Assembly: GCA_037042915.1 (NCBI GenBank)
Contig: CM073193.1
Span: 124,001 to 188,000 of the forward strand
DNA length: 64,000 bases
DNA from: Auricularia sp. M13
Lineage: Eukaryota; Basidiomycota; Agaricomycetes; Auriculariales; Auriculariaceae
Direction of reading: 5' to 3'
Part shown: positions 21,385-54,000 of the stretch, in pieces
Layout: each line of letters opens with the position of its first letter
Numbering within the stretch: the first letter of the stretch is position 1
Made by a program: the position numbers and the translations under genes
Notes under the pieces: generated by a model
What the model was told of the DNA's origin: nothing
Seen by the model: only the letters and a program-made list of their open reading frames with translations
Databases searched by the model: none

Positions 21385-21486
21385 TGTCAGTCGTGGTACA
21401 CGGCGTGAGCAACCCCAGTCGAGTAGAGCAAAGCAATGAGACTGTATTGCGAACCTGTCAGTTGTGGTACACGGCGTGAGCAACTA

Positions 21487-27887: not shown

Positions 27888-27892
27888 GCCCT

Positions 27893-29914: not shown

Positions 29915-30547
29915 TTGAGCGAAACGGTGAGAGAACCAGCGTCAGTTTGCAGCGGAGACTGGGGCGAGGCGCGCCGGTGTCACGAGGCGCATGCTTCTTG
30001 AATTGCAACCGCCCCAATGAACGCGGGCCGCGTCCCTATCTGACCTGAAGGCGGCGTGCCAGTGTTTAAGGCTCTGTTATTATTCCGATGGTAGCAGTAG
30101 CCACGAGTTGGCCGTCGGGAATGTCGGGGCAGTGAACAGCGTCTGCCGGGAAACGAACGAGAGCGCTCCGCATTATCTTCGAGGAGCGAAGAACCAGCTC
30201 GAAGTTTTTCAATCTGGTTGCGAGCTGGTATGCCAGCGGGCAGATCGATAGCGTTAGAGCACGACTTCGACGCGGGGAGACAGTCAGCTTCTAGAAACAA
30301 AAAAATGTGCCATACGCACGACAACAAAGTTCTGTCGGATGTTGACACCAATGCACCCCATTCCCATCAAGCATCGCATTGCGCAGCTTGAGCACGGCGC
30401 CCGCCCAGTCGTCCAAGCGGCTTTTGGCATCCTGAGCGGACCACAATCTGATCTAGCTCATCACTCCACGCACGACGGCGGCGGCGAGTGCGAGAGTGAT
30501 GAGATACATCGAGATGTAGGGAAGCTGCCTGGCCCACGTAACCGAGT
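29915..30547. other. Region upstream of the TPR relic
   Basis: About 630 bp. If the TPR relic once had an NTPase domain it should lie here, but no P-loop or other NTPase motif is readable in any frame. It also serves as the upstream flank of the minus-strand gene starting at 29914. Confidence 0.4.
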
Positions 30548-30789
30548 GTGAAGCGCGGCCCAAGATTCTGTCACCCGCTTTGCGCCCGGTGCCATGCCGA
30601 ATGTCTATTACTCTCCGCGGAAGCACACCTCCTGGCAGGGGATGTCGACGAAACCACAGCGGCCTTAGCAAAGCTCGATCAGCTCACATTTGTCCTCGAC
30701 AGTGTCCCATCCATCAAAATACAGGCACTATGTTTCCGCAGCGATCAGGGCCTCCTTCGTGGCGATTTTGCACAATCTCGTGCTGTTCT
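30548..30789 (+). pseudogene. TPR relic related to the NLR, 5' piece
   Basis: Open frame with TPR-like helices (CHAECLLLSAEAHLLAGDVD; ETTAALAKLDQLTFVL; IKIQALCFRSDQGLLRGDFA), ending in GTTCT at the first LTR insertion. The frame continues through the ten host bases 32344-32353 and then at 50452. Leaving out the inserts and one copy of each target duplication gives 237 uninterrupted codons from 30548 to the stop at 50910. Upstream of 30548 the frame closes and no NTPase is visible, so this was a TPR-only or already truncated copy when the transposons arrived. Confidence 0.7.
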
Positions 30790-32338
30790 TGTTAGAATCC
30801 GCGCCTCCCGAAAGCCCGGCGCCGATACAGGGATAGACGAGAGCAAGCCAATGTATAATACTGGTTGTCCGTATGTCGTAGGTACACGAGGTAGCGACTA
30901 CAGAACGTGACCGGACAACCAGATGAGAAACAAAGGTAAACAATCTACCGGTCAATATCAGCGCGAAGCGGAAACACAATAACTCCGTAACCCTAAATGC
31001 TAACACTCCCCCTGTTTCCGCATAGCGTGCAGGCCCTAGCGCTCCCCCAGAAACCTGCAAGCAAGCAGTGTACCACAGCAGTGTGCGGCCTGAGTGGGTC
31101 GCATGCCGATGAGGACTCCCAATGCGATGATGCAGGAGGTGGCCGATATGCACGCGTTGTCCGGGCCAGCAGATGTGCGGGTAGATACGCCAAATGGTAT
31201 GCACCCAAGTGTGTCCAAACTACCCCCTCCAAGGGCAACGGACAGGCGCTGAAAAGAGCGCCACGTTCCATCCCGCGACCACGGCTGGACCACAGTGCTG
31301 CTGAAGACATGCACAATCGAGCGGCATGCGGACGGTGAGCAGTAGGTCGGGCAATCGAATGGCCAGCACCCTGAGTGGGAGCACCTCCAATTACGGTAGC
31401 GCTGCAGCAGTCTGCGTGGCATAGCGCTCCAAACATGCTCGACGATGGCTGTATTTCCGCAGGTGGCGACATCATCAGACATCGGCCATGTGAGTGTGTC
31501 CCAGTCGTGCAGTCCGAATGGTGATACCAGGCGGGAAATACGATCGAGATCATCGGAATGTGAGTTGTCGGGGAGGCTGAACAGCGGCAAAGATCCCAAG
31601 CATGAATGCCCAGTTGTAGATGTATAGATTTCGACGCGGCGAACAGAGTGCCACAGAGTGGCGACGAAGAAAGGGCCGGGTCGTCAGGGCGAGGTGAAAC
31701 GCGCCGAGAGGAGAGAATGGTAAAAGTCGGTCGGGTCGAGGTTACCCGTGCGGTACGTGTCGGGAGATCCCGGTGAAAATCGACGTCGATAGAATAGAGC
31801 ACCAGTGAAGCAAGTTATACGCCCAGGCCGCGGGCACCAGCCAGCGCAGGTCGCCTAGGGGTGGGGCCGCGGGCCACAGCCGGCGCAGGTCGCCCCAAAT
31901 CGCCGCAAGCCGTCCTCAGGCAAGCGGGTGCTGTCGGGTCACCAGACCGGCAACAGCGGAAACCTAGGTCGCGGGCACCAGCCAGCGCAAGACACCCAGG
32001 GTCGGACCGCGGGCACCAGCCAGCGCAAGACGTCCGAGTGACAGCCGCGGGCACCAGCCAGCGCAAGTCGCCGTCGCCGTGGTGTTGTTGAACGGGGACC
32101 ACATGCGCCCGTGATCTGGTTGTGTTAGAATCCGCGCCTCCCGAAAGCCCGGCGCCGATACAGGGATAGACGAGAGCAAGCCAATGTATAATACTGGTTG
32201 TCCGTATGTCGTAGGTACACGAGGTAGCGACTACAGAACGTGACCGGACAACCAGATGAGAAACAAAGGTAAACAATCTACCGGTCAATATCAGCGCGAA
32301 GCGGAAACACAATAACTCCGTAACCCTAAATGCTAACA
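30790..32338 (-). mobile_element. Short non-autonomous LTR element (TRIM-like)
   Basis: 1549 bp bounded by two 216-bp LTRs (30790-31005 and 32123-32338) that appear identical, with the 5-bp target duplication GTTCT (30785-30789 and 32339-32343). In the minus sense the LTR starts TGTTAGCATTTAGGG and ends CTAACA; an A/G-rich tract (AAACAGGGGGAG) precedes the left LTR, so minus orientation is preferred. The 1.1-kb interior shows no Gag or Pol part. It has a minus-strand open stretch of unknown nature (about 31.0-31.8 kb) and a 38-bp minisatellite. The TGTTAGCA start resembles the LTRs of the two copia elements here. Very young. Confidence 0.85.
31828..32075. repeat. 38-bp minisatellite inside the TRIM-like element
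   Basis: The word CCGCGGGCACCAGCCAGCGC, with small variations, recurs at 31828, 31867, 31969, 32007 and 32045. The period is 38-39 bp, with a diverged stretch after the second copy. Confidence 0.8.
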
Positions 32339-32353
32339 GTTCTTCAGGTAGCA

Positions 32354-32505
32354 TGTTAGCAGTTGATTATAATACTCACTGTATATTTGTCAGTCCGTCA
32401 CTCATGTAGACGCGTGCGCCGTTGTTGTCATACGGCGGAGCTTTAATACACGGCAGTTTTATCCTCACGCTCGTTGCTCCGGCACTTCGCTACACTACTT
32501 TAACA
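32354..32505 (+). repeat. 5' LTR of the nested copia element
   Basis: 152 bp, starting TGTTAGCAGTTG and ending CTTTAACA. It matches 50293-50446. Confidence 0.9.
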
Positions 32506-35500
32506 GGTTATTGAGCGCTGCCCGGGATGTCTGCCGACCTTCTTACTACTGGCACGAAGTTTGTGTCGACCGTACCGCGTCTGCTGGCCGGCGGCACAAA
32601 TTGGGTCGTCTACAAGGACCGCATGCGCCAGCACCTCGAAGGACAGCCCGGATTCCGCAAGCACCTCACGGGTCGAGCCTAACGCCCCGTCGAGCCGACT
32701 GCCCCGTCCCCGCCTGCAGATGCAGACAAGCCGACGGCGGAGGAGACGAAGGCGCAGAACGCGTACGCGCGCGCGCTCGACAGATACGAGGACGAGCTCG
32801 ACGACTGGCTGGTCAAGCAGGCCGCAATTATCGACCGCATCACCCAGTCAATCCCGGAGGACATCCACCAGCAGTTAATAGGCGTCCGTCCCGCTGAAAA
32901 GCTGTGGACGACGCTCGAAGCTATGTTCGCGAATCAATCTATTCTAGTGCGCACGGAAATTCTAATCCAACTTACGGATATTCGTTGCACGGGCGAGGAC
33001 GGCGAGGACCCGCTCAAGACAATTCAGCAGCTCATCGAGAAGCGGAACGAGTATACGGAGGCCGGCGGCAAGCTCGACGACAAGATCTACGCCGCATTCC
33101 TCATCAAGTCTATGCCGAAGACTTACCGCTCCGTCATCCATACGGCCATTACCACGACGAAGGGCAAGCTCAACTTCGACGATATTCACGCCGCGCTGCG
33201 CGAGGCGATACGGCTGGACCAGTCGGAGGTCAAACGTGACCGCGACGAGGCGCGCGCCATGGCGGCGCGATTCCAACGCCAGCAAGTGAAACAAACGACC
33301 AAGTTGCGGACGCGCGACGATGGCGACAAGTTCTGCGACAATTGCAAGCGCACGAACCACAATACCGCCGACTGCTGGCGACCTGGCGGCGCGAAGGAGG
33401 GTCGAGGCCCGAAACCTCGACGCAGCGGGAACGCGAACGGCGATGGCAAGGCGAAGGGCACCGCGAAGTCCGCAGAGACCGCGAGTAGCACCAAGTCCGC
33501 CGATGCTGCCAAGCAGGACACGAGCGCCGTGGTGGCGTATTCATTCTCTGCGACAGCGAGTCGCGCGTTCGGTGCGGTAGCCGCTGGGCACCAGATCTGC
33601 CTGCTCGATACCGGCGCATCGCTGCATTCAGACCCGAACCGCGAGAACTTCACGCACATCGAGCCGTGCGAGCCGTACAAGATCGAGACGGCATCGGGCA
33701 TCGAGTACGCAACGGAGAAGGGCACTATCGCCTTCGCCTGTGTCGTGGACGGCACAGAGCGCCACTTCGAGCTCAAGGACACCTACTACCTACCGTCATC
33801 GACGACCGCGCTCATCTCGCTGGGTCAACTCCGCAAGCGCGGCCTCGTATTCACGAAAGAGGAAGAAGGCTACGGCACCCTCATCGACACCAAGACCCGC
33901 CACGTTGTGGTGAGGGCAAAGGTCCAGCACGACGTGTATCCCACCCCAGGCAGTCACCACGGAACTTAAAATACTTCCGAAGGGGGGTTTCCCAGTATCA
34001 GAACAACCCCCCTTAAATTTGTCCGGCGGCCAGGCTGCGTCGGCCACTGGCGACGTTGGCCGGCGGTGCCGTCGTTTAAGCGGCCACCGCCGCGCGCTCG
34101 TCGGCCGCCGCCCTCCGCTCATTGGCCATCACAGCCTGCTCACTGGCGGCCGCCCCCTGCTCGACGGCGGCCACCAGCGCTTCCGGCAACTCCCGGAGCT
34201 GGCGCTACTGGCCTCGGGACCGGACATGCGTTTCGAGGACGGCACCGAGTTTGCGGGGGAGCCGACAGAGCCGCTGGCAGCGGATAGCGCGCCAGTACCG
34301 CCTGCTCCCAGCTCTTCTACACCGACACTGCCTACGCCCGCAGCGACACAGTCCGACAAGCTGAGTGTGCCCAAGGATGGGCGCTCCAGCGGCGACGAGC
34401 AGGAAGCCAAGGGTCCGGTGCAGGAACCACGCGCTTCGCGCGACTTTACAGCAGACGACATCGGAGGGGATGACCCCGATGCACCTGCACAAGACGGGCG
34501 TCCATCACGCGTCCGCAAGCCTAGCGCATACGTGCGCGCCATCCAGTCCGGCGAGGGTACGACATCACAGTACTCGCGACGTGACCCCAAGTTCGTGCGA
34601 GGTCTACAAGTCCCGCCCGACTCAGAGCATGCCGCCATAGGATTTGCCAAGGGTGTGGTCCCGTCGGCACTCATTCCGCGTACCGTCAGCCAGGCCGAAC
34701 GCAGCGTCAACAGTGACGACTGGATTTCTGCTATGGAGACGGAAATGGCAACGCTTGACGCGCACGAGACTTACAAGGTTGTGCCGCGCGAGGTGGCAGG
34801 TAGCAAGCCCGTCATCCCACTCAAATGGGTGTTCGATAACAAGACCGACAGCGCGGGTAACATTACCCAGCGCAAGGCTCGACTCGTCGCACGTGGAGAT
34901 TATTAAGCGCGTCACGGCGAGTACGGCGAAACATTTGCGCCAGTGCTCAAGTCAACATCGCGCAATATTCTTCTTGCGCTCGCAGCTCGTTTCGACTGGG
35001 AAGTTCGGCAATGCGACTTCCGCGGCGCATACCTCAATGGCGTCCTCGACGAGCCGCTCTATGCGGAACAGCCGCAGGGTTTCACGGCGGCTGGCACCAC
35101 GTCCGCCTCTCATATCCTCAAACTCGGCAAAGCCCTTTACGGCTTCAAGGAGTCCGGCCGTGTGTGGTACAATACCATCAGTGCGTATCTCCTCAGCCTT
35201 GGTTTCAAGTGCTCTGTGGCAGATAACCCCGTCTTCTACCGTGTCTCGGATGCCGAGCGCACATACATCGGACTTCATGTGGATGACCCGATGATGGTCG
35301 GCAACAACCTCAACCTCCTCCTTTTCCTCGAGCAGCAGCTCAACGCCAAATTCCCGATGAAGATCCTCGGGGATGCTCATCATTACCTCGGCATCACCAT
35401 TTGTCGCGACCGTGGCGCCGGCACCATCAGCATCTCGCAGCCATCGTACATCGAGGACGTGATCACGCTTTGCGGGTTGCAAGACCCTCGACCTGTCGCG

Positions 35501-35680
35501 ACACCACTCAACCCTGGTATCCGCGTCAATCGCAGTCAGTGCCCGAAGACCGACGACGAGAAGGCCGATATGGAGAAGTATCCATTCCGCGAGGTTCTTG
35601 GCCAGCTTTTGTGGATTGCAAACGGTCACCGCTACGACATTGCATATGCCTGCAGTCTCTTATCGCAGTTCGCATCAAAC

Positions 35681-36187
35681 CAAGGGGTGTCCAAGAAAAA
35701 AAAAAGTTACACAGGGTCCAAAAAACAAAATAAGCCCTCAAGCGGACCCCTCCCTCCCTCCCTCCTGCCTAATCCGGTAATATATTCCCACGCATTTGCC
35801 TCCGGATATCCAGAACCGCTAACTCCGGGATCATTACGATTATCCCTAAGGTTTTTGCCATCCTCTGCCATAGCTAAGTCATTAAATCGAAGTCTCAGCA
35901 TTCAGGCACATAAGATATGAAGCTATTTCCGAATTGAATTCAAATTGTGCTTGACGATCGGATGGTCTCTAATGATCTGCTTTTGACTGGTATGCTATAT
36001 ATATTTGGGTTCAAACAAGGTTCAAACCTCAATTTCAGGTGGATAACAAGTCTCAGGCCATTCTACGCAGCTTCGGGAGGACTCTCAGAAGCAAATTTTC
36101 GGTTTTCAAAAAACGAAATAAGGTCCTCATCGGACCCCTCCCTCCCTCGTCCTTGTGTTATCGGATTTTGCCGATGGACACCCCTTG
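35681..36187. mobile_element. 507-bp hAT-type MITE
   Basis: Perfect 12-bp terminal inverted repeats (CAAGGGGTGTCC at the left, GGACACCCCTTG at the right) and the 8-bp target duplication CATCAAAC (35673-35680 and 36188-36195). This combination is diagnostic of the hAT superfamily. There is no coding capacity. A direct repeat lies inside, CAAAAAAC(A/G)AAATAAG followed by CGGACCCCTCCCTCCCTC, at 35719-35760 and 36107-36148. It interrupts the RNase H side of the copia element; the copia coding sense resumes directly after the right duplication. Confidence 0.9.
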
Positions 36188-36754
36188 CATCAAACCCCGG
36201 TATGGCGCATTGGAATGCCCTACTACATATCGTCCGCTTCCTCGCTGGTACACGCAGCAAGGTCCTTGTCTTAGGAGGCACGGCCGACGGTCTTCAAGGC
36301 TGGTCCGATGCGAGCTTTGGTACGGAGTCTCTTGACTGGCGCTCGATGTCCGGATATGCTTTCATGCTGTTCGGTGGCGCTATTTGTTGGCGCTCCAAGA
36401 AGCAGAGTGTCATTGCACTCTCCACCGCTGAGGCGGAGTATATTGCCCTTGCGCACGCGACCAAGGAGGCCGCGTGGATACGCTCTTTACTTTCTGAATT
36501 ATTTGATCCTCTCATAGATCCAACCGGGCCTGGATGTTTTGCCGCGCGTGCCACGCATGTGGTGCGCAGACAATATCTCTACAGAAACATAGCCAATTCC
36601 GTTAATTTCTAGAGCAAATTGTAGAGTCAAGTGTGGGCCACAAGTTACAGATGCAGGGTAAGCCAAATAGGCAATAGAAAGATGTTAGGAAAATTATCAG
36701 TATTCTGGGATGTATAGTTCCGTGGACAGCCACGCGCGGCACTGCACGGCACTT

Positions 36755-37089
36755 GCGCGGCACTGTGCAGCACCCTACCACCACACAAGCCCAGCACCCC
36801 AACAACACATTATGGACATATCTCATGGTTTGGATGTGCACCCCCACACCCTCTGACCATGCTATACTCAATGGTTTCAAGTGGGGAGGTTGCTAGATGC
36901 CTGGGCACCAATGCGCGGCATGCGCGGCACTTCTCCTGCTGGGTTTGAAATGTGCGGCACCCCTTGCTGCTTCAACCACAGCTTCTGTAGTTCTGAAACT
37001 TGTCCAGAGCATCATATTAGACTTATATGATCCACATATAGTCAAGAAATAGTGTTGGATTGTGTTAGTTCATGAGATGTGGTTGAGGG
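36755..37089 (+). repeat. Left arm of the 335-bp inverted repeat
   Basis: Reverse complement of 37841-38175, with a single mismatch seen by eye in 335 positions. The spacer is 751 bp. Confidence 0.9.
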
Positions 37090-37620
37090 GTAAAACTGCC
37101 CCTTTACCACCCAAGCCCAGTGCACACCCAAAACACCATTTAGGCATCCACTATGGACTGGACTAGCTGGGACCAAGCTATGGAGCATGTCCAGACTGTT
37201 TGTAACACTACAGATGCTGCTGAGGGCACTGGGTGCACATGCGCGGCACGTGCGGCACTTCTCCTGCTGGGTTTGAAATGCGCGGCACTCTCTCCTGCTC
37301 CAACCAGAGCTCCTGTAGTTCTGGAACTTGTTCATTCCATGTTATTACACTACTTTGTTGACAATGGTACAGCAGAAAGCCTCTAGGGTGCCATGGATAA
37401 CTCCAAATTGTCGAGGGGCAAAACAGCCACTTTAACACCCGAGTCTGAGGCACACCCAAGACACCTTGTTGGCAACAAGATAAGGACTGGAATAGCTGAG
37501 ATAGTACTATGGACCAAGTCTAGACTGTTTGGAAGACTTCAGGTCTTGTTGTGGGTGCAGGGTGCACATGTGCAGCACGCGCGGCATTTCTCCCACTGAG
37601 TCTGAAATGCACGGCACTCT
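36914..37620 (+). repeat. About 325-bp diverged tandem units with GCGCGGCAC motif
   Basis: The block GCGCGGCACTTCTCCTGCTG followed by GGTTTGAAATG recurs at about 36914, 37239 and 37565 (the third copy more diverged), i.e. with a period near 325 bp. The first unit lies in the left inverted-repeat arm and the others lie in the spacer. Confidence 0.7.
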
Positions 37621-37840
37621 CCTCAAATCTCCCTAGGGCCTCTCTAGTTCTGAAATCTGTTCAGGTCATGCTATTGTCATTAAGGGGGGCTAAGGACACC
37701 ACGAGAAGTGCATGCTATGAGTATTCAGGGGTGGAATACTAGGCACAGACCTGCCCACCAACTTGGCTTCCAGTACCAGAGCAGGCCAACTGATTCTGCA
37801 CTTACTCTCACCATATCCTTGGCCCCCCTTAATCACAATA

Positions 37841-38175
37841 CCCTCAACCACATCTCATGAACTAACACAATCCAACACTATTTCTTGACTATATGTGGAT
37901 CATATAAGTCTAATATGATGCTCTGGACAAGTTTCAGAACTACAGAAGCTGTGGTTGAAGCAGCAAGGGGTGCCGCGCATTTCAAACCCAGCAGGAGAAG
38001 TGCCGCGCATGCCGCGCATTGGTGCCCAGGCATCTAGCAACCTCCCCACTTGAAACCATTGAGTATAGCATGGTCAGAGGGTGTGGGGGTGCACATCCAA
38101 ACCATGAGATATGTCCATAATGTGTTGTTGGGGTGCTGGGCTTGTGTGGTGGTAGGGTGCTGCACAGTGCCGCGC
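37841..38175 (-). repeat. Right arm of the 335-bp inverted repeat
   Basis: Partner of 36755-37089. The right end of the arm (GCACAGTGCCGCGC) lies 167 bp from the gypsy insertion point. Confidence 0.9.
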
Positions 38176-38342
38176 CACAGCCACATACTTTTTTAATATA
38201 GTCCTCCCAATACTTGAGGAAATCTTTCCCTCACATGGTGTCTGGAGAGGGCTCAGTTTTCCCTGCTGATTGATCTTTCAAAATATGCTTTAGCTGCAAT
38301 AATCATGGAGATATGGCCTGCGCACCACTGCGCGGCACATGC

Positions 38343-39095
38343 TGTAAGGCCAAGCGGCCATGAGTGAATAGTGAAAGTCAATAGAATCATTACTCACCGA
38401 TGGTTTTGGGCCTTTAGACAATATTGAGAGCTGCTTGAGCTTGCTTCTCACTCAGGAATGAATGGGAATTGGCTCTGTTAAGCAGACTGAGGACTCTAGG
38501 ATAGCTAAAATACAGATATTTATACTAAAAACACAGTTGGAGTCATGCAATGGCTCCTGACTCGGATTCCACATCTATCCCGGTCCACCTGTGACTCGGG
38601 ATAGCCTCTGCCGGTCGTACTCGTCATATCCCGCACTCCAGAGAGGCGGGATATTCGGTACCGACGGCAGGAAACTGACTGCGGCGGCGCGCTGTCCCGC
38701 AGCCGGGGCATACGCGCCGCGCCGGCATCCCCAACTCCTCGGTCCCGAACTCTCCGCAGCCCAAAGGACGCGCGTCTCGACCCGAAGGGCAGACGCGCGT
38801 CGTCGGCCGGCTTGCGATCCAGAACCAACGCCGGAGTTTCAGCTCCTTCGCGGCAAGGTCGCATCATTGGGCCGAGCCGCGAACCATCCTCACCACTGGC
38901 TCTTTGACCCAGTGGTTATCTCGCTGGATTAGTGCTGTTGGGTTATTGGTTCAATTCTGAGCTGAGGTAGTCTTTTATTGCAAATCCGGAAAAGTTGTAT
39001 TACACTCTCAAATGCCGCGCACGCCCATCCTAGTTCTCGGGTAGTCAAGAACTGGACAATCGTTAGCCAGCGGCAAGGCGAGAGCGGGCGTTACA
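38343..39095 (-). repeat. 3' LTR of the gypsy element
   Basis: 753 bp, starting TGTAAGGCC and ending GTTACA on the plus strand, almost identical to 49259-50011. Confidence 0.92.
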
Positions 39096-39124
39096 TACGC
39101 CCTCCGAAGTTGGTATAGCGGCTT

Positions 39125-40304
39125 CTAAGTCGAGCCGCTCGAGCCGCTGCCGCTGGCGACGGTAGAGGCGTCGACGACCTCGCCCTCCTCGGGTTCATAC
39201 GGCGGGGAGACCGGTGAGAGCTCGCGCGTCAGTTGAGACGCGAGCTCGGCGGATTCGCGGTCGTCGGAGACGTGGCCCAGAACAGCGGCCATGGGGTCTT
39301 CGGCGTCGTCAGCAACGACAACCGGTGGGCGCATATACGGTGCCGCAGCGCGAGCGGCGGCCGCGATGAGGGTACCAGTGCGAACTGGGCCCTTCTTTCC
39401 GCGCTTGCGCTTGAGCTCGACGCCTTCTGCGAGCTCGGCGTGGCGCGAGGTGATCTCGCGCAGCAAGGTGAGGTTGTTGTGGACCATCCGCATCGAATCG
39501 TCGATGCCCGCGCGGATGGCCTTCACCTCGCCCTCAACGCTCACCACGCGTTGGTACATGACGGCGAAGCGCCGGTCAAACTCGCCCACAACCTACGAGT
39601 ATGATGAGAGTCAGTCGAGCGCGCAATGTGTAATCGGCGCACACGGGCAGAGACTGAGTCGGGTGTCGCAAATCCGACCTTCGCGAGCTCCTGGCTGACG
39701 ACTCGAGCGACATCCTCGGGCGTAGGCGGCCTGTGGAGCCCGCGAATGAGCCGATCGACGCGGTCGACGGCGTTGGCGATATTCGACGTCTGAGACGTCA
39801 TGGTGACTCGGAGATCAGCCATGGCGTTCTTGGCCCTCTCGCCCATGACTGCAGCGCGCTCGCTGCGCAGGAATGTCTCGTTCGTGGACGAGTACAAGCC
39901 CGCGAGCGTCGGGCGCAACACGTCGGCTAACTCCGTCGCGATGCGCCCAGAGTGGTAGGGGTCGAGCACGATAGCTCGACCCGAATCGTAAATCGCAGAC
40001 GCAGACGGCGCGTAGGGAGTTCCGGTCCCGGGGTTGACGTTGAAGTGAGCGTCAGCCAGCGTTCGAGGAGGCCCGCCCAACCCTCCCCCCGGGAGGTTGG
40101 TAGTAGGGTAGGTGTTGGCGGGCGTGGCGCCGACGCCATTGACTGGCGGCGGCGCCGATCTCGGTTGCTGCAGCCGTCTTAATTAGTTGAAACGCCCAGC
40201 ACCCGCGACAGCACTTGCACCGGTCCGCCAGGGGCAGTGCCGCTAGAGCGCGGCGCGAGACGAGGATCCTGGGGAGTGTTGGCGTTGGCGGGTGCGGTGG
40301 CCAT
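39125..40304 (-). other. Accessory coding region of the gypsy element, downstream of Pol
   Basis: Between the chromodomain-like piece and the 3' LTR lie open segments on the element's own strand, about 39.1-39.6 and 39.6-40.1 kb, with a possible start near 40.3 kb (MATAPANANTPQDPRL). They encode a helical, probably coiled-coil protein (DRRFAVMYQRVVSVEGEVKA; LREITSRHAELAEGVELKR), a basic KRKRGKKG patch that looks like a nuclear signal, and an acidic tail (YEPEEGEVVD). I recognise no domain. Standard gypsy elements have no gene here. Splicing between segments is possible but was not established. Confidence 0.55.
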
Positions 40305-43300
40305 AGGCGCGGATTGGGGTGTACAAATGTTGGTCGCTGCGAAGCGGTCAACTTGCGATAGGCAGTCATTGGAGCTATTGCTCCCCTATATAATCGTCTC
40401 GGGCGGACCGTATGGTCCTCCCAGTCTTCCTGACGACCCTGAGGACGCGCGTGCTTCGCGCAGAGCGTCCTGGCTGGCTGTATGCACCGGGAGACCGCTC
40501 CCAGTGCCGTTGATTCCATATCGGAACCGCGACCCTGCATGATCCCGTCAAGGATCATTAGTCGCGAGTGTCTTCCGGCGGGACGGACATACCTGCTGGC
40601 AGGTCACGGGGTTTCTCCACCCCCATGGCCTGGAGATAGGACTCGAGCGCTGCGAGGTGCTTCACCTCGCGGAGTCGCTCCCAGCTGACTTGTCCGGTAT
40701 TCCATTTGACCTCGAATAATAGATCTCGTCCTTTGCCATAATGGTTAGTCATTTCAGACACGGTCCACTCGTCGGGAGACGGACCGAATCCAGGTAGTTG
40801 TCCTAGCAGTCGGCCCGGGAATCGTTTGTCATCGTTGATCACGTGCGGCCGAGTAGCGACGCCGCGTGAAACGCGTTATGTATGCCGCGAGCGCGCAATT
40901 CCTGCGGCAGATCGAGCTCGAACGTGGTATCACGTACGAGCGTCCGAGTAATCTTGTAAGGGCCAATATACTTCGGCGCAAGTTTACGCGACGCACCCTT
41001 CGGCAATGTGAGATTCTTCGTGGACAGGTAAACCCAGTCCCCCTCACCGAAAGGCGTCGTTCGGCGGTGCTTGTTCGCCTGCCGAGTCTGGCGGACGCGT
41101 GCATCGATGATAGCGTCATGCGCTTGCATGATTGCATCTTTCATCATGCGCGCAAATTTGATAACGCCGGGATACGGTGAGCTCGCGTTCCACTTGAGGG
41201 CTCGGGGCAGCGCACCATAGTTCAGATAGAAAGGAGAAAATCCCGTGGTCTCTGAGACCGCGGAATTCATCGCGAACTCGATCGCGGGTAACCGTTTCGC
41301 CCAGTCGGTCGGATTCGCAAGCGCGCAAACGCGCAGCATTTGCACCAGGGTACGATTAGCACGCTCGGTTGATCCGTCCGTCTCTGGGTGATAAGCGGAC
41401 GACATCCTGAGATCCACGCCTATAAGATCGTGCAGGTTGCGCCAGAAAATGCTGGTAAACAGCGAGTCCCGGTCACTCACGATGCGCTCAGGTAGTCCGT
41501 GCAGCTTGTAGATATGTTCGAACACAAGCTCTGCGATATCAGTAGCCTTGTATGTTGACTGAGTTGGTACAATATGTACCATCGATGTGAGGTGATCGAT
41601 TATGACGCAAATCATATCGAATCGCCCGAGCCGTGTGAACGAGTCGGGCAACGGCCCGACGAAGTCGATCCCAATGGACTGCCAGGGCCGCGACGGCACT
41701 GGCAGCGTCTTGAGTTTGCCCAGGGGTTGCTGGCTGTTTGCCCTGTTCAAGGAGCAGACGCTGCAACTCCTGCAAAAAGATTCAACGTCGCGGCGCATGT
41801 CGCGCCACCAAAATGCAGTTCGAATGTACTGCAAAGTCTTGCTTGCACTAAGATGTGCGAGGATCGAATGGGCCTGCGAGATGATTATCTCGCGAACGGA
41901 ACGGCCCTGGTGCAAGAAATCAGGGACACAGATTAGCGACTCCTCATCGGTAATCATGCGCATAATCCCTGCCTTGATTTGGAAATTCCGGTAATCATGG
42001 GGATTTTCAATAATTATCTTGAAGAATTTGTCGTTTTTGTATTCAGGCTCGAAGATAGCGGGTATATTGAGCTGAGGCTCAGCGGCCTTCAGCACCGACG
42101 CGATGTCGGCGAGTCGATAGTCGAGCAACGGCTCGGCTGTTCCCGCATCTTGACCTATCACATCCCCAGAGGCGCGCGACGGCGAGACGTTCGCCGGCGA
42201 CCGCGCGTCCTCTAATTCTTCTTCTTCGTTATGGTCGCGCCCTCCGCTGGGCTGCGCGGGTTCCAGCAGCTGGGGCGGGTCTGCATTCGCAGGCTCGCCC
42301 GTCGTCACTACTTCGGGCGTGACCTCATTCGAGGCTGCGTCAGGCGTGTCCGCATTCGCGGGCGCGCCGTCGTTCTTCTTGTGTCGAGGACCGCGCCGAC
42401 CTTGGATCAAGCTCGCCCAGGCCGGCGGGCCCGTCTTCGCGCCGAGTCGCGCAGACCGTCGGACGGCGTCGTTCAAAGGTGCGTCAGCGTTCGTATCACC
42501 TTTGTTACGACCTGTCGTTTGATGCTGACCCTCCGTATCACCTTTGTTACGTCTATCAGGGGAGTTTTGTCGCTGGACCGACGCAGCGAAACTGGCCAGG
42601 GCTTCGCGGCCAGTCAGCACCGGCGCCGACAGCCAGCGCGACGCGCGCGCCCTCCAGGTGAGTCCCACGGCGTTTGATTGCAACGCGGGCTCATCGTCCT
42701 TATCGTCTTCTTCGCAGACGTGTTCACTGGGGGCCCGTACAGTCCCTGTACCGTCCTCGCTGTACAGTCTGGACAACGCGTCGGCGAACTTGTTCGTCTC
42801 GCCGGGGATGTACATAACCTCAAAGTCGAACTCGTTAAGTACGTCGAGCCAGCGGCTTTGCCGCGACGATAATGACCTTTGGCTCATGAAATACTGCAGG
42901 GCTTTGTGGTCGGTACATATACGAAACCGCGCGCCGTGCAACATGCCGCGGAAACGCTTCAGCGACTCGACGATCGCGAGCAGCTCCAGCTCGTGCACGG
43001 GATAGTTCTGCTGGGCGGGATTGAACTTCCCGCTCCAGAACGCGCAGACTTTGGCCGTCGCGAGATCGTCGCCTTGGCTTATATAGCCACTTCCGCCCGT
43101 CAAACACGCGTCCGTGACTAGGTTAATCCACGGTGCGTCCTTGTCGTAGTTTATTGCGACCCGATGCTGATTACGGTGGTCAGCCACGATCCGTCGTATC
43201 TCGTCGAATGCGCGCTGCTCGGTCGCACCCCACCGCCACGGGCGATTCACGCCGGTCAGCGGTGTCAGCACGCCCATGGGAATGCGGATACCGGCGCAGT

Positions 43301-46300
43301 CTGGGGCAAGGAAACCTACTGCGCCAAGGAAGCTCTGGAGGAGTGCTCGGCTCGTGGGCACTTTCCAGTTCGCGACGGAGTCCACCTTATGTGGGTCCAT
43401 CCGTATCCCGTGCTCGTCGATTATATGCCCTAGAATATTGATTTCTGCCGCGAATAGCTGCATTTTATCAGCACTCAAATAGAACTTGTTTTCGCGCAGA
43501 ATCCTGAACACCGTCCGGATGTGGTCAATGTGCTCCTCAAGAGTGTACGAGTAAATTATAATGTCGTCCAAGTAAACATCCATCCAGACGCCGAGGTGTT
43601 CTGAGAAGATGTGATTCATGAGCATCTGGTAAGTTGCCGAGCCGTTACAGTCTCCAATCTGGAGGACTAAACTCTCCATTGTGCCGTCAGGCGTGTTGAA
43701 AAGCGTACGGCTCACATGTTCGGGCACGACGCGGATTTGCTCATAGGCGTCCTTGCCGTCTATGAGGCTTCTCCACGGTCGCCGCACCACGCTCCGCAGT
43801 ATCGTGTCGATATCTGGCAAGGGCGTCGCGATCTTCAACGTATTCTCGTTCTGCGCGCGTTTGTCAACGACAGTGCGCATGCGCAGAACACCGTCTCCCT
43901 TCGGCGGCTTCGGGATTATGAGCAGCGGCGTGCAGCTCGTTCCTGAAGCGAGTCGCCAGCGTCCCGTCGCGAGGTAAGCGTTCTTTTTCTCAGTCCACAG
44001 GCTTCTCATCGCCTCTGGACAGCGCGACGGACGCCACGGGTAAATCTTCTTCTCATCAATGAGTGGAATAGTATGGTTAATCGCGCGTAGCGGCGGGAGT
44101 TCGGTGAGCCATGCATCTTTGCATAAGTCCTCCGCCTCCTTCTTCATCTGCTGACGCAGTGTTTCCAGTCGTTCCTCATCGATTATCGCAGCTGCGGCCG
44201 ACAATGAGAACGCCTCGGAGCCCTGAATCGGCTCAGGCTTCGCGTTCCCGATAACCACTCGCGTCGGGTTGAGTCCAATCGCCACAGAATGCTGCCACAT
44301 GAAAGGAGTGCCTAAGATAAGGTCGTAATTGTCAAGGTTAGCAACGTCGAATCGTTTCTCGCAGTCAATGTCCTGATACTTGAACTGCACAGACACTTCG
44401 ACATTGATCTTCGAACGGGACCCCTTGACCGCGAGCTGCACTGGAATAGGACGTTCCAGTGCCCTCACTCTCAGCTTGAGTTGATCTACCAACGTCATGG
44501 AGACGAAATCAGCGAGGGAGCCCGAATCAATTAGTACGCGAACAATCCGATTTTGTACACGCGCTTCAACTACTACAGGTCTGGGAACCATTCGGGTTAT
44601 GCTTCTGACCCGCATCGCAGTGCGCTCGAGCGGTTCAGAAGACCCTGGTTTCTTATTCCCACTACTGCCCGCTCGTCCCGCGCCGACTAGACGCGAGGAA
44701 CTCACGGTAATCGCGTGACACGCGATCCCGCTGCGGGAGAGAAGGTCAGCCTGAGTAGTTGCAGGTTGCAGCACGGTACTCACAGGTTCCACCGTAGAGT
44801 GGATCTCGGCGCGGTGCAGCACCGCGGGTATGCTTATCCCCGCGGCTGCAATCTCGGGCGTCACATGGTAGTCGAGTCGCGTTTCGAGGTCGCGCACGAA
44901 GGTTTGCCCACGGCTACGCATGATTACATAGCGTTGATTGTCGATCCCTAGCTGGTGTGCTTGTTCGTTCGTCATCAGCCTGAACTCGCCATTCAGAAAT
45001 ACTACGGCATGGTCAGGCGAGTAATCAGGGTTCCTCTCGTTCGGAATACTGAGACCACGCAGACTCGCGATCGTTGGCCCGTCGTAGCCGGCGTTTCTCT
45101 CGACGTGGCGCCGTACAATTGCGGATACGCGCAGATCTCCAGCGAGGAAGTCGTCACGGAAGACTTCGTACGCGTCACCGGTACCCCAGTCGTTCACTAA
45201 GAACGAGTTGTTCTTCTCGTCGTATTCGACCGTAAACCTACGGTCGACGTGCATCTTGATGGTGCCGTCCAAAGAGGTGAGATTTCCGAAGTAGTTCTTG
45301 AACTTGCCGATTAACACCTCTTCCACGATGTAGGGCTTGGCGTAGGCGAGTTCGTGCTCATTCTCCGGGTGCTCGATCATCAAGCGCATCCCCGCGAGCT
45401 GCAGCGCATTCTCGTCACTGTACTCGCGTTCGTCGTACGGGATCTCGTCTTGAAGTTCTACACGGTGAGCTCGAATGGCCTTGATCTTCGGTGCGAACGG
45501 TTTGCTGACGCGCGCAGCGCTCGAGTGTAGAATCGCGGGGCGGCGTGCTTGCATTCGCGTCGGGCAGTTTCTGCTGAAATGCCCTTCGCTTTTGCAGATA
45601 AAGCACTTGCCCTCTGCTTGTAGGCGTGCTTTCTCCTCGGCGCTGAGGACTTCTCGCCGCGCGAATTGACCGTCGCGCGAGCGTGGAGGGCCCATGGTCG
45701 GTCCTCCTCTCGCACCTCCGCGGCCGTTGGATCCTCTGAACCCACCGCGGCCGCGACTGGACTGGAACCCGACAGCATTGCTGCGGATCCAGGTTTTCGG
45801 TCGCGAGGTGGGTCGTCCGACGGTGAGACTCGCATTTTGCACACGCTGACGCCAGTTTGAAGCAGAGCTTGATGCAGTCCGACCGTGGACGCGATCCGAG
45901 GTGTGCATCTGGCGGTCGACTCCCGCGCGGGCGCGCTCACCTTTCTCGAACTGCTCCGCAGCAGTCACGAGTTGGTCGAACGGGCTTTCGTCGATGTTGA
46001 AGCCGTAGTCGAACCATTTGGAGCGTATGTAACTGTGCACACCTTCCCATAACACCTGGATGAGCTGACGCTCTCCGATGTCAGGGAATCGCTGCGCAAG
46101 CACTTGGATATCTCGCGCGAACTCGCGCACATCACGCTGGCCTTGTGTCGACTGCGCGAAACGCTTGCGCAGCATGAGCTTGAAGTCCGAGGGGAAGCAG
46201 TGGTCAAACAGTTCATTAAAGAACTTCCTCATCGTCCACTTCTCCTCGGACAAGACGATATTGCTCATAAACCATCGCAACGCTTTTTCCGACAGAAAGC

Positions 46301-49258
46301 TTGACATCATCGGGATCGCCCACTTGGTACGCACACCGTTCAGCCGTTTCCAAAGGTCGACTTCGTAACACCACTGGTCGTAGACGTCAACGTCCGCGCG
46401 TCCATCGTAGATGCGCGGTTGTTTGATTTTCATCTGAGAGACGAGCTTGCGCCGCGCGCGCAAGTCGTCTTCGTCGTCCCTGCCGTCCGACTCATCTCCA
46501 GAGTCGTCTCCGGGATCCCCTCCAGCAGGCGGCGCTGGGTCAGAACCGTCAGGCGGCGGTGGCGAGCCGCCTTGTCCGCCATTACCGCCCGGAGATCCGC
46601 CTCCCGGCGGACCCCCTTCTCCTCCTCCGCCATTCCCACCAGGTCCCCCTCCGCTTCCGCCATTACCGCCGCCACGCCCGTTCCCAACTGGGTCAGGGCT
46701 CGGCGGTGTTGGCGGTCGCGGTGGGTCACTGGGCCCGCTCGGCGGTCCAGCCGGCGGTTTCCCAGAGTCAAGAGGTCCGCGGCGAGCATCCCGCTCGCCG
46801 TGCGGTGCTCCAGACGCAGGGGCGGACGAATCTAGCGCAGCTGGGGCTGGTTTTCCCCAGCTTTGCTGATTTGTTCGCACCTGCACGGGGTACTTGGTGA
46901 GGTTTATCGCAGAATCGAATAGGTGAGCCGTTCTTACCTTATTTCTAGCTGACCGGCTGCTGACAGGGTATGCGACATCGCCCGAGTCGGACGAATCGCT
47001 CCGAAAAAACGTGGAACGGACTGGGGCACCTCCGCTGAGGGCTCCAGGCAACCCTCCAGCTTCCGAGTAATACCCACCCGGCGGCGCTGCTCTTGCTCGC
47101 GGCGTCTCCGGGTTGGAGTTGTGCACGGTGATGCTGCGCACCATCCCTCCCGGTGGGAAAGGTGCGTTTTGCTGTGGGGAACGGGCGTAGTCTTCGCTGA
47201 CGCTGTTCCCCAGACAGGTATTCCCTGGCCGAGCTGTGACTCGAGTACGGCCGTTTTCGCCTGCACGACACCGTGCTGTTGCTGCGCAGTCGAGGCGAGC
47301 GACGAGCTTGCCTTCGTCCGCCGCAGGATACCCGGCGTGACTGGCGCTGGGTCGGCTTGATACGACGGCAGCGGCGACGACGAGTCGGCGAAGGAGAACC
47401 GGACTGACTTAGGCGTGGAGGTCGCTGTGGGTCTCTCCAGCGGGTCCACGCCTTTGCCTTTTCCCGGGCGTCCAGTGCCGATGGGATCAGGTAACGGTCG
47501 AGTCTTGGGCGAGGGAGACGTACGAGCGGCCTCGCTGTGCGTCTTCGGTTTCGGTGGTGCCTGCACTGGCTTGACTAAATGCGCAGGTATCTCGTTGTTC
47601 GCGAATTTAACCAGGCGGTCGCGGCCAGCGGCTTTGAGTGCGTTACGCTTTCATTCACGTAATTAAGCCACTGACGCAGTACTTCCACTCGATGGTCTGG
47701 AAATATCCCGCTCATATAAGCGAGCGCGGGATCCAGTCCTTCGTCGTGGTACTTGTCCAGCGCAGACTCGCTGAACTTGCGTAATTTCTTCACGTATGCA
47801 CTAACGGATGTCGCAGGCTCTTCTCCAGGCTGCAGCGGCAGTGGTTCGAGCGTCGAGTGGGGGCTTGACGGCGCTGTAGCTGGTTCACTGAGAAATGGAC
47901 CAGTTGTAGCACCGCTCGTCGTATCACTTGGGGCGACGAGGGAAGGTACCGCGCTAGTCGCCCGAGACGATGGGCGACTGCTTGGACCCTCTTCTTTGTC
48001 GCTCTCGACGGCGGGTAGGTCCTGCGCATGTTTAGGGTAAGTTTCTTCTTCTGCTACCCACGGCTCAATTCTGACCGAGTGATCCCCACTGTTGTAGTGC
48101 GCGTACCACCGAGGGAAATCCTGCGGTCCCGAGATGGTCGGCACAGGGATCACTTCGCTAGCTTGCTTCGGAGGTGAGCCTTTCTTGATTTTGGTAACCC
48201 ATCCGTCGGCGTCGACAATGGTTCCTTCGCCAACTGTTCGCCAAGTCGGATTCGCGCCTGCGTCTCCCGACGTGTGCGTGCCGAACTTGACAGTTGGCTC
48301 AGCTACCATTGCTGACGGATGTATTCTCGGCGGGCTCGTCCTTTCTGAGCCCGGCGGGTCAGCTGTCGGCGGCTTTGGTGCAACTCCGGGATCTGCCGGA
48401 GTTGCAGCAGCAGGCAACTGGATCGCGCCGCCGCCAGTTACAACCGTTGCCGTTCCCTCTGGCGCAGCTGGCACTGGCCGGATTGGCCCGTGCGGCTGCG
48501 CCAGGGGTGAAACGCGGGGTACTGACGGTGTTGTAGGCGCAGTATCTGGGTCGGCCGTGCGGAACGATGCGTCTGCCGCCGAATCCGTCGATTTATCTGC
48601 TGCTAGCGGGAACTCGAAGTCCCCGACTAGTTTGCTGACATGAATGGACCCCGCTTCGCTCAGCGGGGTCAACGGCGACATGGGTGCGGTGCGCGACGCA
48701 GCAGGTGTCGCGGGCGCAGAGTCGCCGGCGTTCGATGCTCCAGCTGGTTTGGCTGGGGTCATCAGACCTTCCCAGGACTCCCGTCTCGCCGGGGAGTCCG
48801 CATCCAGCATGGCGAACACGCGGCGCGCTGGAATGCGCGGCGTCGCCAGCCGAGCAATCGTGTCACGCAACTCGCGGACTCGATTGTGCAAAGGGGTCGG
48901 TCCTCCCGGGAGCGACCCGGGGGCGCGAGTGTCTTCGTCACTCGCGTACGAACGTCTTCCAGAGCGGGTCTTGACCATTTTTAATGAGTTTTTATTTGTT
49001 TTCGAATTCGAGTTGAGATTTGAAACTGAGATTTGAGGCTGAGACAGATTTAGAGAAGAAACCGAGATTTGATTTGAGATTGTAGAGAGACTTGAGAGGT
49101 TGAGAGTCGAGATTTGAGGGAGTTGAGAGTGATGGTGAGAGTGAAGTGAGTTGTTTGAGGTTGAGGTTGAGATTTGCTGAGAGAGTTTCTGCATGCAGTG
49201 TGATCAGTACTGTATGCAAGGGTCATAAATGCAAAACAGAGAAGTTTCATTCAAAAAA

Positions 49259-50011
49259 TGTAAGGCCAAGCGGCCATGAGTGAATAGTGAAAGTCAATAG
49301 AATCATTACTCACCGATGGTTTTGGGCCTTTAGACAATATTGAGAGCTGCTTGAGCTTGCTTCTCACTCAGGAATGAATGGGAATTGGCTCTGTTAAGCA
49401 GACTGAGGACTCTAGGATAGCTAAAATACAGATATTTATACTAAAAACACAGTTGGAGTCATGCAATGGCTCCTGACTCGGATTCCACATCTATCCCGGT
49501 CCACCTGTGACTCGGGATAGCCTCTGCCGGTCGTACTCGTCATATCCCGCACTCCAGAGAGGCGGGATATTCGGTACCGACGGCAGGAAACTGACTGCGG
49601 CGGCGCGCTGTCCCGCAGCCGGGGCATACGCGCCGCGCCGGCATCCCCAACTCCTCGGTCCCGAACTCTCCGCAGCCCAAAGGACGCGCGTCTCGACCCG
49701 AAGGGCAGACGCGCGTCGTCGGCCGGCTTGCGATCCAGAACCAACGCCGGAGTTTCAGCTCCTTCGCGGCAAGGTCGCATCATTGGGCCGAGCCGCGAAC
49801 CATCCTCACCACTGGCTCTTTGACCCGGTGGTTATCTCGCTGGATTAGTGCTGTTGGGTTATTGGTTCAATTCTGAGCTGAGGTAGTCTTTTATTGCAAA
49901 TCCGGAAAAGTTGTATTACACTCTCAAATGCCGCGCACGCCCATCCTAGTTCTCGGGTAGTCAAGAACTGGACAATCGTTAGCCAGCGGCAAGGCGAGAG
50001 CGGGCGTTACA
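49259..50011 (-). repeat. 5' LTR of the gypsy element
   Basis: 753 bp, partner of 38343-39095, directly followed by the CATGC duplication. Confidence 0.92.
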
Positions 50012-50292
50012 CATGCGCAGCACGCGCGGCAAAACCTCCTCGCCCGATCCAACCCCTATTCGTGTCGACAATCAGTCCGCTATTGCTCTGGTGAAGAACA
50101 ACAAGTTCCACGACCGTACGAAGCACATTGCGCTCCCGTATCACTATGTCCGCCACTCTGTCGCAAATAGGACCATCTCCATCTCCTGGGTCGACACGCA
50201 TTCCAACTTGGCTGACCAGTTCACCAAGCCGCTCGACGTTGCCAAGACTACACGCTTTGCGGCTGGACTAGGCTTGACGGCCTGAGGGGAAG

Positions 50293-50446
50293 TGTTAGCA
50301 GTTGATTATAATACTCACTGTATATTTGTCAGTCCGTCACTCATGTAGACGCGTGCGCCGTTGTTGTCATACGGCGGAGCTTTAATACACGGCAGTTACT
50401 TATCCTCACGCTCGTTGCTCCGGCACTTCGCTACACTACTTTAACA
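50293..50446 (+). repeat. 3' LTR of the nested copia element
   Basis: 154 bp, nearly identical to 32354-32505, followed by the TAGCA target duplication and then by the TPR relic. Confidence 0.9.
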
Positions 50447-50451
50447 TAGCA

Positions 50452-50910
50452 TTCACCATCGCGAGGGAGGCAATCACGAGGGGCCGTAGCCTCTCCAGCG
50501 CTCATTTGTCAGACACTCTGGTTGCTGAGGCTGACTGCATTGCTTCCCTTGGCCAAGTGGAATGTGCAGCAGGACGCCGAGAAGAATCAGCATCCCTGGT
50601 CGTCAATGCGGTTATCATAAACAGGAAACAGGGCCACACAGCCACTTGCGTACGCTGCCTAGCTCTACTCGCTGAAGTTGTCGATGACGATTTTGCCGAG
50701 CGGCTGGTCGAGGCTTTGTTGTTGCCGCTGCAATGGATGGGGTTTAGCCACGAGCTCGCCATATTGCAGTTGCGATTGGCAACCATAGCGCAGAATCGCG
50801 GACAACACACGCTTGCCCGCAAACGCGCTCGAAACGCGCTGCGGTACTTCGGAGAAATCAAAGGAGATTGGCACGTCCGCATAGCGGAGAGGATCGCAGC
50901 AGACGAATGA
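50452..50910 (+). pseudogene. TPR relic related to the NLR, 3' piece
   Basis: Continues the frame of 30548-30789 through the bases TCAGGTAGCA (32344-32353). It encodes TPR-like helices and the C-terminal end. CLALLAEVVDD and RARNALRYFGEIK match ALARLAEVVDD and RAENALRYFVEIE near the C-terminus of the NLR at 17374-20615, so the two are paralogues. Ends with TGA at 50910. Two LTR elements now separate it from its 5' piece by about 19.7 kb. It could only be expressed by itself as a short TPR fragment. Confidence 0.75.
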
Positions 50911-51099
50911 CCGTGTTCGGGTAGGAAATGCTTCTAGATGGGTTGTCTTCCGGTGATTGCGACCCAAGCCGTTGTTCTCTGACGGAAGTTATATTTTGTA
51001 CCAAGCAAATCGTTACATTCCCAATTCCATCATCTCGTCGTACACAAATCATCATGCATACTACAACATCATCGCTACAACTTACAGCAGAAAGAGCGT

Positions 51100-54000
51100 C
51101 TACACGGGCACCTCGACACGCCACGCGCGCACGCATGCGTCCGCGCCAGCCGCGATAACCTCGTCCGCCGCACGCCACGCAGCCACAGCACATCCACCGG
51201 GAATCGCATTCCGTATCGCGACATACCTGCGAGCGAGACGTGAGCCGCGGCGAACGGTCGGAGAGGCTCGACACGGGAAAAGGAAGGGAAAGGAGATATT
51301 GTACGCACTTGCCCGGCTGCGTCACGCTCCACACATACACATGCGTGTCCAGGCTCCCACTGACGAGCGCCTTGCCGTCGTCGCGGAACGCGAGCGCCGC
51401 GACGCGCGCGGAGTGGAACGTCCACCGCGTGATCGTCGGCTTGCCGCCCGCGACGTCGTACACCACGATCTTGCCGGAGGACTGAAGCGCAGCAGGTCAG
51501 CTCACCGATTACATCGTGAAGAATTGCAAGAAAAATTGCGCGAAATGGAGGGATCGGCAGAAATAATGGACGTAGGACGTACATCACCAGCAGCTAACAA
51601 ACTTCCATCAGGCGTAAACGCCAGCGCGCTCACAGCGCCGCGGTTCGCGTCCAGCGTCGCACTGCGCAGTTTCAACGCGCCCTCCGCCCAGTCGTACAGC
51701 CGGATCTTGTTGTCCTGCGCGCAACAAAACCAGATTCTCAGTTCGTCGTTCGGGATGCCATGGATGCGAAACACGTGGACGCACCTCTCCACCAACAGCC
51801 ACAACCCCGCTTTTCGCAACCGCCACGCTGGCCGCACCAAAGTCCGTCTTGACACCCAGAATCTTCTGCCCGTCCTTCACAACGGCAAGACCGTTGTTGG
51901 AAACAACAAACGCGACGTCGCCCAACACTGCAAGCGAGCGCGGCTGGCCGCCCAGCGAGACCGTCGTCGAGCTGCGGGAGCGAGGCACGAGTGTTAGCAG
52001 CGAGTTCATCGGGACAGCGCCGTCAGCGAGTCAACAGGAGCAGGGACAGCACATTCATCGACACCGCGGCGGGCAACGAGGCGCTGCCCGCGTCAGGGCG
52101 TCCATAGGACAGCGCCGCCATGGGAGCAGAGGCGTCAGCCCATCCGACACACGGTGCGTTAGCGCACTCATGGACACCGCACCGCCAGCGATCTTACGGG
52201 AACAGCGCACCGCCCCGCCAGCGAGTCCAGAGAACAGCGCGTTCATCACCCCCGCAGCACCCGCGAGCCCTCAACCGCGACTCTCGCACCAGCCCGCACC
52301 AAAACTCCAAACTCACCTAAACCCATCCGCCGCCCTAATCTCCCGCGCGCAATCATCAAAGCCCACACTAACCGCCTTGCCCTCGCCGCCTCCAATCGCA
52401 GCGACGCCGACCACCTGGCCCGTATGTCCGCTGCCGGGCACGATCGCCGCCTTGCCGTCCTCGCGCGCAAAGCGGCACACGCGCCCGTCGTACGAGCCCG
52501 CGAGGAACGTGCCGTCGGGCAGGGTCGTGCCTGCGGGACAAAGGGAGACGATGAGTCAACAACGCGAGGGAGAAAACGGGTGGGGACTCGGAGGGACGAT
52601 GAAAGCGGAAGGGACAGTGTCGCGGACACACAGGAACGTTGGAGGCAACAGGGACAGTGTCGCGGAGACACAGGAAATGCGAGGGAGAGCGGGAGAAGCG
52701 CGCGCGGCGCAGCGAACAGCTTGGGGAGACGCTCTTTGCGAGCTAACAGCTGAGGGAGAGAGGCGCTAGCGGACAGCTCGGGGAGAGGCGCATTGTGCAG
52801 CGGCAACGGCTGGTAACACAACTGGGCCGCCGGCCGCACTTTCACGAAGTGCAACGCGCGCGGGCGAACGTTGAATCGTGCAGCGATCGGGAGACGCAAT
52901 GACGGAGAGGGAGAGCAGCGACTGAGCAGCTGAGAAAACCATGCGCGTCGGGTCCGAGACGAGAGACGAGAGCCGCAAGGGACGGCGCGCGTGGTTCCGT
53001 GTTGACAAAATACGATTCGGGCAGGAAGTGCGCGAGAGAGGGAGAGTGGAGAAACAGCGAGAGAGGCGCGCGTTACGCAGCGGACACCTTGGGGAGAGGC
53101 TCACGTTGCGCAGCGCTAGCGGACAGCCAGCAGTTCGTAACCCTACTGTACCGCCGACCGCACTTTCGCGAAGCCCAACGCGCGCGGCAGGAACAATGGG
53201 TTGGGCAGCGATCGGAAGAGGAGGCCGCAGCGCAAAACGCAGTTGGGCGCGCGCCGGGCAGATCCATGTCAGTCAGCACGAGACGGCGAGCGTGTTTCCG
53301 CATGGCCAAAGTGGCATGTCGGAGCGGGCAGCGGCTGCGGTATGCCGGGGCAACGCAAGGGGGCAAACAAGGTCACGCGAGGCCATGCGCACCGCTGATC
53401 GACATAGCAGTGCGGAACAGCGCGCGCAAAGAAACGGCGGAGGTATGTGCAGCGCGGAAAGGGAAGCAAGGGAATGGAGGAACGGCGAGAGTCGCGCGAT
53501 ATGCAGAGCTTCGGTGGTCGCGAGAGCGGAGCAAGAGAAGATGGGCGATGGGAGTACTTTTGCAGACGACGCGGACGAAGAAGAATACATAGCGGACGAC
53601 CCCAGAGATAGATCCGCACGCTTATGCGCGCGAGAGGTTATCTCGTGACCCGCGCACGAGCGGAGCCGAACGACGGGCAGAAGGAACGGATAGCCGCACG
53701 CTTGTGCGCGCGCAGAACTTATCTCGCGACGCATGCACGAATGAAGCAGAGTGGACAGGTGCGAAGAAGCAGCGAGAAAAGAACGGCGCGGAAAGGACAG
53801 GCGGACAGGGGGCAGCAGCGAGAGTACGCACCGGCAGTGATGCCCTTCTGCGGGCCGACGAGCACGAGCGCGGGCTTGTCGCCCGGCGCGCGCTCGTCCC
53901 ATACGTTGAGTGCGCCGTCCATGCTGACGCTGACGATGCCGCGCGGGGTCCACGTCACGCCGACCTGCGATGCAATAGGCGTCAGAGTGTGTAACGCGAT

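Follow-up and report, generated by a model that had tools for sequence, protein, structure and literature searches.

Nested LTR retrotransposons have been described in fungal genomes, for example in Pseudocercospora, where young elements lie in older ones and fragment them, according to the accessible text of that study (PMC13041039). TRIM elements occur in Boletales basidiomycetes (PMC5689174, accessible part), NLR genes that combine nucleotide-binding and TPR parts are known in fungi (PMC4986451, excerpt) and clusters of NLR genes were reported in Sordariales (PMC12258605, excerpt). A literature search retrieved no paper on a nest with the features described below; the texts were available in part, and we make no claim that such a report is absent from the literature (in the accessible part of PMC4289320, "nested" occurs only in the reference list). 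In this study, we analysed a window of 64,000 nucleotides from Auricularia sp. M13 (contig CM073193.1) and observed, at positions 30548-50910, a nest of five transposable elements, several of them inside one another, in the broken remnant of an NLR-like gene. We give this reading, together with the following explanation taken as a whole, a probability of about 0.9. In this explanation, the host is a paralogue, in decay, of a fungal-type NLR/STAND TPR gene, and it was probably 5'-cut or functionless before it was hit. It received two LTR elements 10 bp apart, a small TRIM-like element and a copia-type element without detectable integrase. The body of the copia then took up a MITE (hAT-like on an 8-bp reading of its target duplication) as well as a MULE-like foldback element, which is non-autonomous and whose right terminal repeat was later entered by a gypsy-type element.

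The sequence was read over 27000-39000 and 48900-52500, with a test of every junction. All five elements are flanked by target site duplications (TSDs) that are identical letter for letter. These are GTTCT for the TRIM-like element (30785-30789 and 32339-32343), TAGCA for the copia (32349-32353 and 50447-50451), CATCAAAC on the 8-bp reading for the MITE (35673-35680 and 36188-36195), GATCCAACC for the inverted-repeat, MULE-like element (36517-36525 and 50046-50054) and CATGC for the gypsy (38338-38342 and 50012-50016). Random pairs of positions in the window share 5 bases at a rate of 0.0012, 8 bases at 2.3e-5 and 9 bases at 6.5e-6. Therefore, five such duplications together at element ends are not explained by chance. 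The initial annotation had claimed five insertions with their TSDs, which is borne out, and its four junction pairs (30789/32344, 32353/50452, 35680/36196 and 38342/50017) agree with the measured ends; the pair of the inverted-repeat element, 36525/50055, was absent from its list. The containment that it described was likewise found, with the copia in the host frame, the MITE and the inverted-repeat element in the copia, and the gypsy in the inverted-repeat element. Near-identical LTRs are a known kind of collapse point in assemblies, and in the nest the two LTRs of each pair, over lengths of 152-753 bp, agree at 99.9-100% of the aligned bases, so that part of the nest could in principle be an artefact joining LTRs of different copies. 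However, matching TSDs stand outside the ends of every element, and both the host frame and the copia frame resume in phase, which makes an assembly artefact barely credible.

The host is preserved in two parts on the plus strand: a left part (30548..30789), which is a TPR-type frame open from 30542 that ends in GTTCT, and a right part with the stop codon (50452..50910), which matches an NLR-type ORF of the same window. Joined with one copy of each TSD, the frame from 30548 comprises 711 nt, that is, 236 sense codons and a stop. It had been described as running open for 237 codons; the frame is indeed open across the inserts, but that figure includes the stop. Upstream of 30548, the frame extends by two more codons up to a TAA at 30539-30541; it is broken if the second copy of either host TSD is retained. 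The paralogue of the host, at 17682-20615, is an intact ORF of 977 codons with matches above the Pfam cut-off to nSTAND1, TPR_12 and TPR_2 and below it to AAA_16 and NB-ARC. It has the fungal NLR arrangement of a nucleotide-binding domain followed by repeats, of which the host shows the repeat region only. In tblastn, the right host part matches this ORF with 34% over 149 aa (E 2.4e-13); its Pfam match to TPR_12 (E 2.9e-4) is below the cut-off. The left part alone has no significant similarity to the NLR, as 4 of 200 shuffles reach its score, and its Pfam matches, DUF6278 (E 0.014) and TPR_4 (E 0.29), both fall below the cut-off. The joined frame is collinear with residues 745-955 of the NLR, with a score of 201 against a maximum of 194 among 500 shuffles of the left part.

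Potentially, the host was still a complete and functional NLR-type gene before it was destroyed by the LTR elements. Such a history would agree with the little decayed state of the relic, which is open over 236 codons (in a simulation, 4 of 3000 sequences were open for this length in a given frame) and still aligns with the C-terminus of the NLR. However, a tblastn search with the whole NLR, to E 10, detected no significant trace upstream of the relic of the first 744 residues, which include the nucleotide-binding part, and the first ATG of the joined frame from 30548 is codon 180. Moreover, a degenerate fragment of an AIP1-like WD40 gene (30361..30452, minus strand) is located on the opposite strand, ending some 90 bp before the open host frame. 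A working host is, in light of these points, quite unlikely. What was named an NLR-related TPR gene in the initial annotation is not demonstrable as a gene, since no ATG precedes codon 180 and only residues 745-955 of the NLR are represented; from its sequence, it is best called a 5'-truncated relic, an intron or a distant upstream exon being conceivable from DNA alone. The host would have been in this relic state before the first insertion. The AIP1-like fragment is a copy of 51644-51735 (72% over 92 nt, E 3.7e-6; local score 54, maximum of 50 shuffles 32), and its place beside the relic suggests an old duplication of the block. The name AIP1 was taken from structure-library matches of one ORF of the neighbouring gene, the best of which were WDR1 and AIP1 chains.

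TRIM elements are short, non-coding LTR elements with LTRs of about 100-250 bp. The element that we call TRIM-like (30790..32338, minus strand) is 1549 bp long, its two LTRs (30790-31005 and 32123-32338) are identical at 216 of 216 bases, and the three ORFs tested in it gave no Pfam match. On the minus strand, the purine-rich tract GGAAACAGGGGGAG adjoins the LTR; no tRNA was matched to the primer-binding site. A host spacer of 10 bp (32344..32353, plus strand), which ends in TAGCA, separates this element from the copia.

The copia-type element (32354..50446, plus strand) has direct LTRs at 32354-32505 and 50293-50446 that run from TG to CA (TGTTAG...TTTAACA) inside the 5-bp TSD TAGCA. They align with 152 matches and no substitution, the sole difference being one 2-nt indel. 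Pfam matches were obtained to Retrotran_gag_2, Pol_BBD and RVT_2, and no integrase match (rve, gag_pre-integrase) was obtained in three frames or in the four further, longer ORFs scanned within 33.2-35.3 kb. The succession of gag, protease, integrase and RT-RNase H is thus incomplete at the integrase, which the initial annotation did not mention, and on these domains the element is a copia derivative and not a full copia. About 0.9 kb separate Pol_BBD from RVT_2. The window's other copia, in which this distance is about 1.7 kb, has Pfam matches to pre-integrase, SH3 and RT and, below the cut-off, to gag and rve. The gag-integrase protein of the other copia has no match in the nest copia at E 1; its gag part is unmatched too, so this result weighs little. 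Three pieces of the nest copia match the RT-RNase H protein of the other copia in order, at residues 95-424 (37%, E 2e-60), 423-547 (36%, E 6e-17) and 555-628 (46%, E 1e-17). The small pieces at 36190-36525 and 50046-50282 gave no Pfam match each, and both match the other copia.

The gag-protease frame of the nest copia ends at 33967, and two premature stops, at 32680 and 34904, interrupt the copia frames. At both empty sites the frame resumes in phase, reading ...SQFASN/PGMAHWNALL across that of the MITE and ...FDPLIDPT/PIRVDNQSAIALV (that is, ...DPT/PIRVDNQ) across that of the MULE-like element. Because this copy has no detected integrase, contains premature stops and nevertheless has LTRs that differ by one indel only, it probably moved in trans; mobilisation in trans is what we infer for all four elements without a complete set of genes, this copia among them. 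A small inverted repeat (AAGGGGGGTT...AACCCCCCTT) is contained in the short stretch at 33960-34230, where the copia would be expected to have its integrase.

The MITE in the copia (35681..36187) is 507 bp long, which is too short to hold a transposase. With the 8-bp TSD CATCAAAC, the terminal inverted repeat (TIR) CAAGGGGTGTCC is present at both ends; a 10-bp reading, with the TSD GCATCAAACC and AAGGGGTGTCCA at both ends, fits equally well. As the two readings are equally symmetric, the MITE is tentatively regarded as hAT-like, provided that its TSD is CATCAAAC.

The MULE-like foldback element is divided by the gypsy into a left and main part (36526..38342) and a right end (50012..50045), the first 5 bases of which are the gypsy TSD. 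For this element an 8-bp TSD had been proposed. Eight of the nine bases were right, but a length of 8 bp does not fit the ends: over the scanned end positions, the symmetry of the ends reached 32/40 for the 9-bp TSD GATCCAACC and also 32/40 for a 7-bp TSD, ATCCAAC (ends CGGGC), and no more than 7/40 or 12/40 for 8 bp. The element might not be MULE-like at all if its TSD were 8 bp (hAT-like), which the eight bases that become common when one end is shifted would allow, or 7 bp, which is as symmetric. The poor match of the 8-bp ends speaks against the former; against the latter stands that two flanking bases would have to agree by chance (1/16), whereas the 9-bp reading needs one complementary pair (1/4). 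We therefore prefer 9 bp and consider the shorter readings unlikely. A 9-bp TSD and G-rich ends fit Mutator-like elements. Accordingly named on its longest symmetric reading (9-bp TSD with TIRs at 32/40, the 7-bp ends being equally good), the inverted-repeat element would be a non-autonomous Mutator-like element, and the superfamily of both DNA elements is putative. The nine bases of GATCCAACC are three codons of the copia. No transposase was found in the three frames of at least 90 codons that lie wholly inside the element (96-103 codons), for which reason it is named only MULE-like; in Pfam, the same frames gave two sub-cut-off matches to unrelated families (E 0.04-0.07).

The right end of the MULE-like element outside the gypsy matches its left end at 28 of 34 bases (score 48, maximum of 200 shuffles 26), and the inner side past the gypsy carries the terminal-repeat match on (score 54, maximum of shuffles 39). 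The gypsy sits inside what these matches delimit as the right terminal repeat. Within the element, inverted arms at 36748-37089 and 37841-38182 are 99.7% identical over 335 bp, and direct units are spaced 328-329 bp. The observed/expected ratio of CpG over 36526-38342 is 0.37; over 1.8-kb stretches of the window, the median is 1.20, the 5% point 0.90 and the minimum 0.32. A hairpin of 169 bp at 37672-37840, with 25-bp arms that are 92% complementary, adjoins with its right edge the inverted-arm breakpoint at 37841. The hairpin was also considered as a plain TA-flanked MITE insertion, which found no support; the third direct unit is not resumed on the far side. One could speculate that the near-identical arms stem from a recent inverted duplication at the hairpin edge and that the element, since it is CpG-poor in an otherwise undecayed copia, belongs to an old silenced lineage that was remobilised into the latter, although we regard this scenario as doubtful.

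The gypsy-type element (38343..50011, minus strand) has LTRs at 38343-39095 and 49259-50011 that are identical at 752 of 753 bases. Its pol is contained in one ORF of 2189 codons (40839-47408), which matches RVT_1 (residues 1169-1330), RNase H (1429-1527), H2C2 integrase (1837-1890), RVP_2 and a zinc knuckle above the Pfam cut-off, and rve (1929-2008) and Retrotrans_gag below it. RT-RNase H before integrase and a 5-bp TSD, CATGC, agree with a gypsy, with rve remaining below the cut-off. A chromodomain in 40561-40848, after the pol frame, received no Pfam support, the one match there being unrelated (E 0.11). The first 24 bases of the gypsy LTR had no match outside the window. In viral contigs, neither the gypsy RT-RNase H (3 stretches) nor the copia RT (9 pattern stretches) had a relative. 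In genome contigs, the gypsy RT-RNase H gave 21 stretches and one relative at 51%, in a contig whose title names a Rhizonema MAG. Because lichens, basidiolichens among them, harbour Rhizonema as a photobiont, the relative in this contig is probably due to fungal contamination, in keeping with a basidiomycete source. The contig gives no empty site.

Containment sets the order of insertion: the host was there before the copia, the copia before the MULE-like element and the latter before the gypsy; the copia also preceded the MITE. In this respect the order given in the initial annotation (host, copia, DNA elements, gypsy) stands, but nesting does not order the TRIM-like element relative to the copia, as the host contains the two at a distance of 10 bp, or the MITE relative to the MULE-like element, as both sit in the copia. 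It had also been stated that every layer is dated by its target duplications. TSDs give the order of layers but no ages. The LTR pairs cannot supply ages either, being too short and differing too little, with 0 substitutions in 216 bases for the TRIM-like element, 0 in 152 for the copia and 1 in 753 for the gypsy. At a rate of 1.05e-9 per site per year, taken from the accessible part of PMC5689174, the LTR pairs correspond to 0.63 My (0.02-3.52) for the gypsy, 0-8.13 My for the TRIM-like element and 0-11.56 My for the copia. An ordering of the layers by LTR-pair age was rejected, because the range of the gypsy falls inside those of the other two.

Indices of repeat-induced mutation (TpA/ApT and related) were calculated for seven stretches and for the whole window. 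The copia and the gypsy are near the window values. TpA/ApT is somewhat higher in the TRIM-like element (0.84 vs 0.65 in the window), and the CpA+TpG index is higher in the MULE-like element (1.55), the MITE (1.43) and the right part of the host (1.65) than in the window (1.15). A second nest was observed at 21385-27891. It consists of a copia-type element on the minus strand, from gag to RT, with the 5-bp TSD GCCCT, the left LTR of which is interrupted by a stretch of about 1.06 kb (21490-22545), absent from the right LTR and flanked by TACAC/TATAC. Also in the window, the neighbouring ORFs at 261-1757 and 1997-3442 have F-box-like matches and share a stretch that is 73% identical.

In summary, the nest neatly illustrates a known and ordinary kind of genome decay, with nothing categorically new. 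It provides a clean worked example in which a partial order of transposon insertions is read from one sequence, with the relic of a receptor gene as landing place. It is also a ready marker, in that population samples with some of the layers missing would time the steps; the general picture would remain unchanged. With foldback Mutator-like elements, as their traits are generally known, the MULE-like element shares the 9-bp TSD on the preferred reading and the long inverted repeats; it differs in that no transposase was found and in that its arms are 99.7% alike but its outer ends match at 28/34. The TRIM-like element is like those described in the accessible text on Boletales in being short, LTR-bounded and non-coding, a likeness by description and not by sequence (PMC5689174). 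The neighbouring ORF at 17682-20615 is like the fungal NLR genes of the excerpt seen of PMC4986451, whereas the host of the nest retains only the C-terminal repeat region. As in the Pseudocercospora nests, in so far as the accessible text describes them (PMC13041039), young elements lie inside older ones; here, however, each layer carries its own TSD, and the host frame is the relic of a receptor gene.
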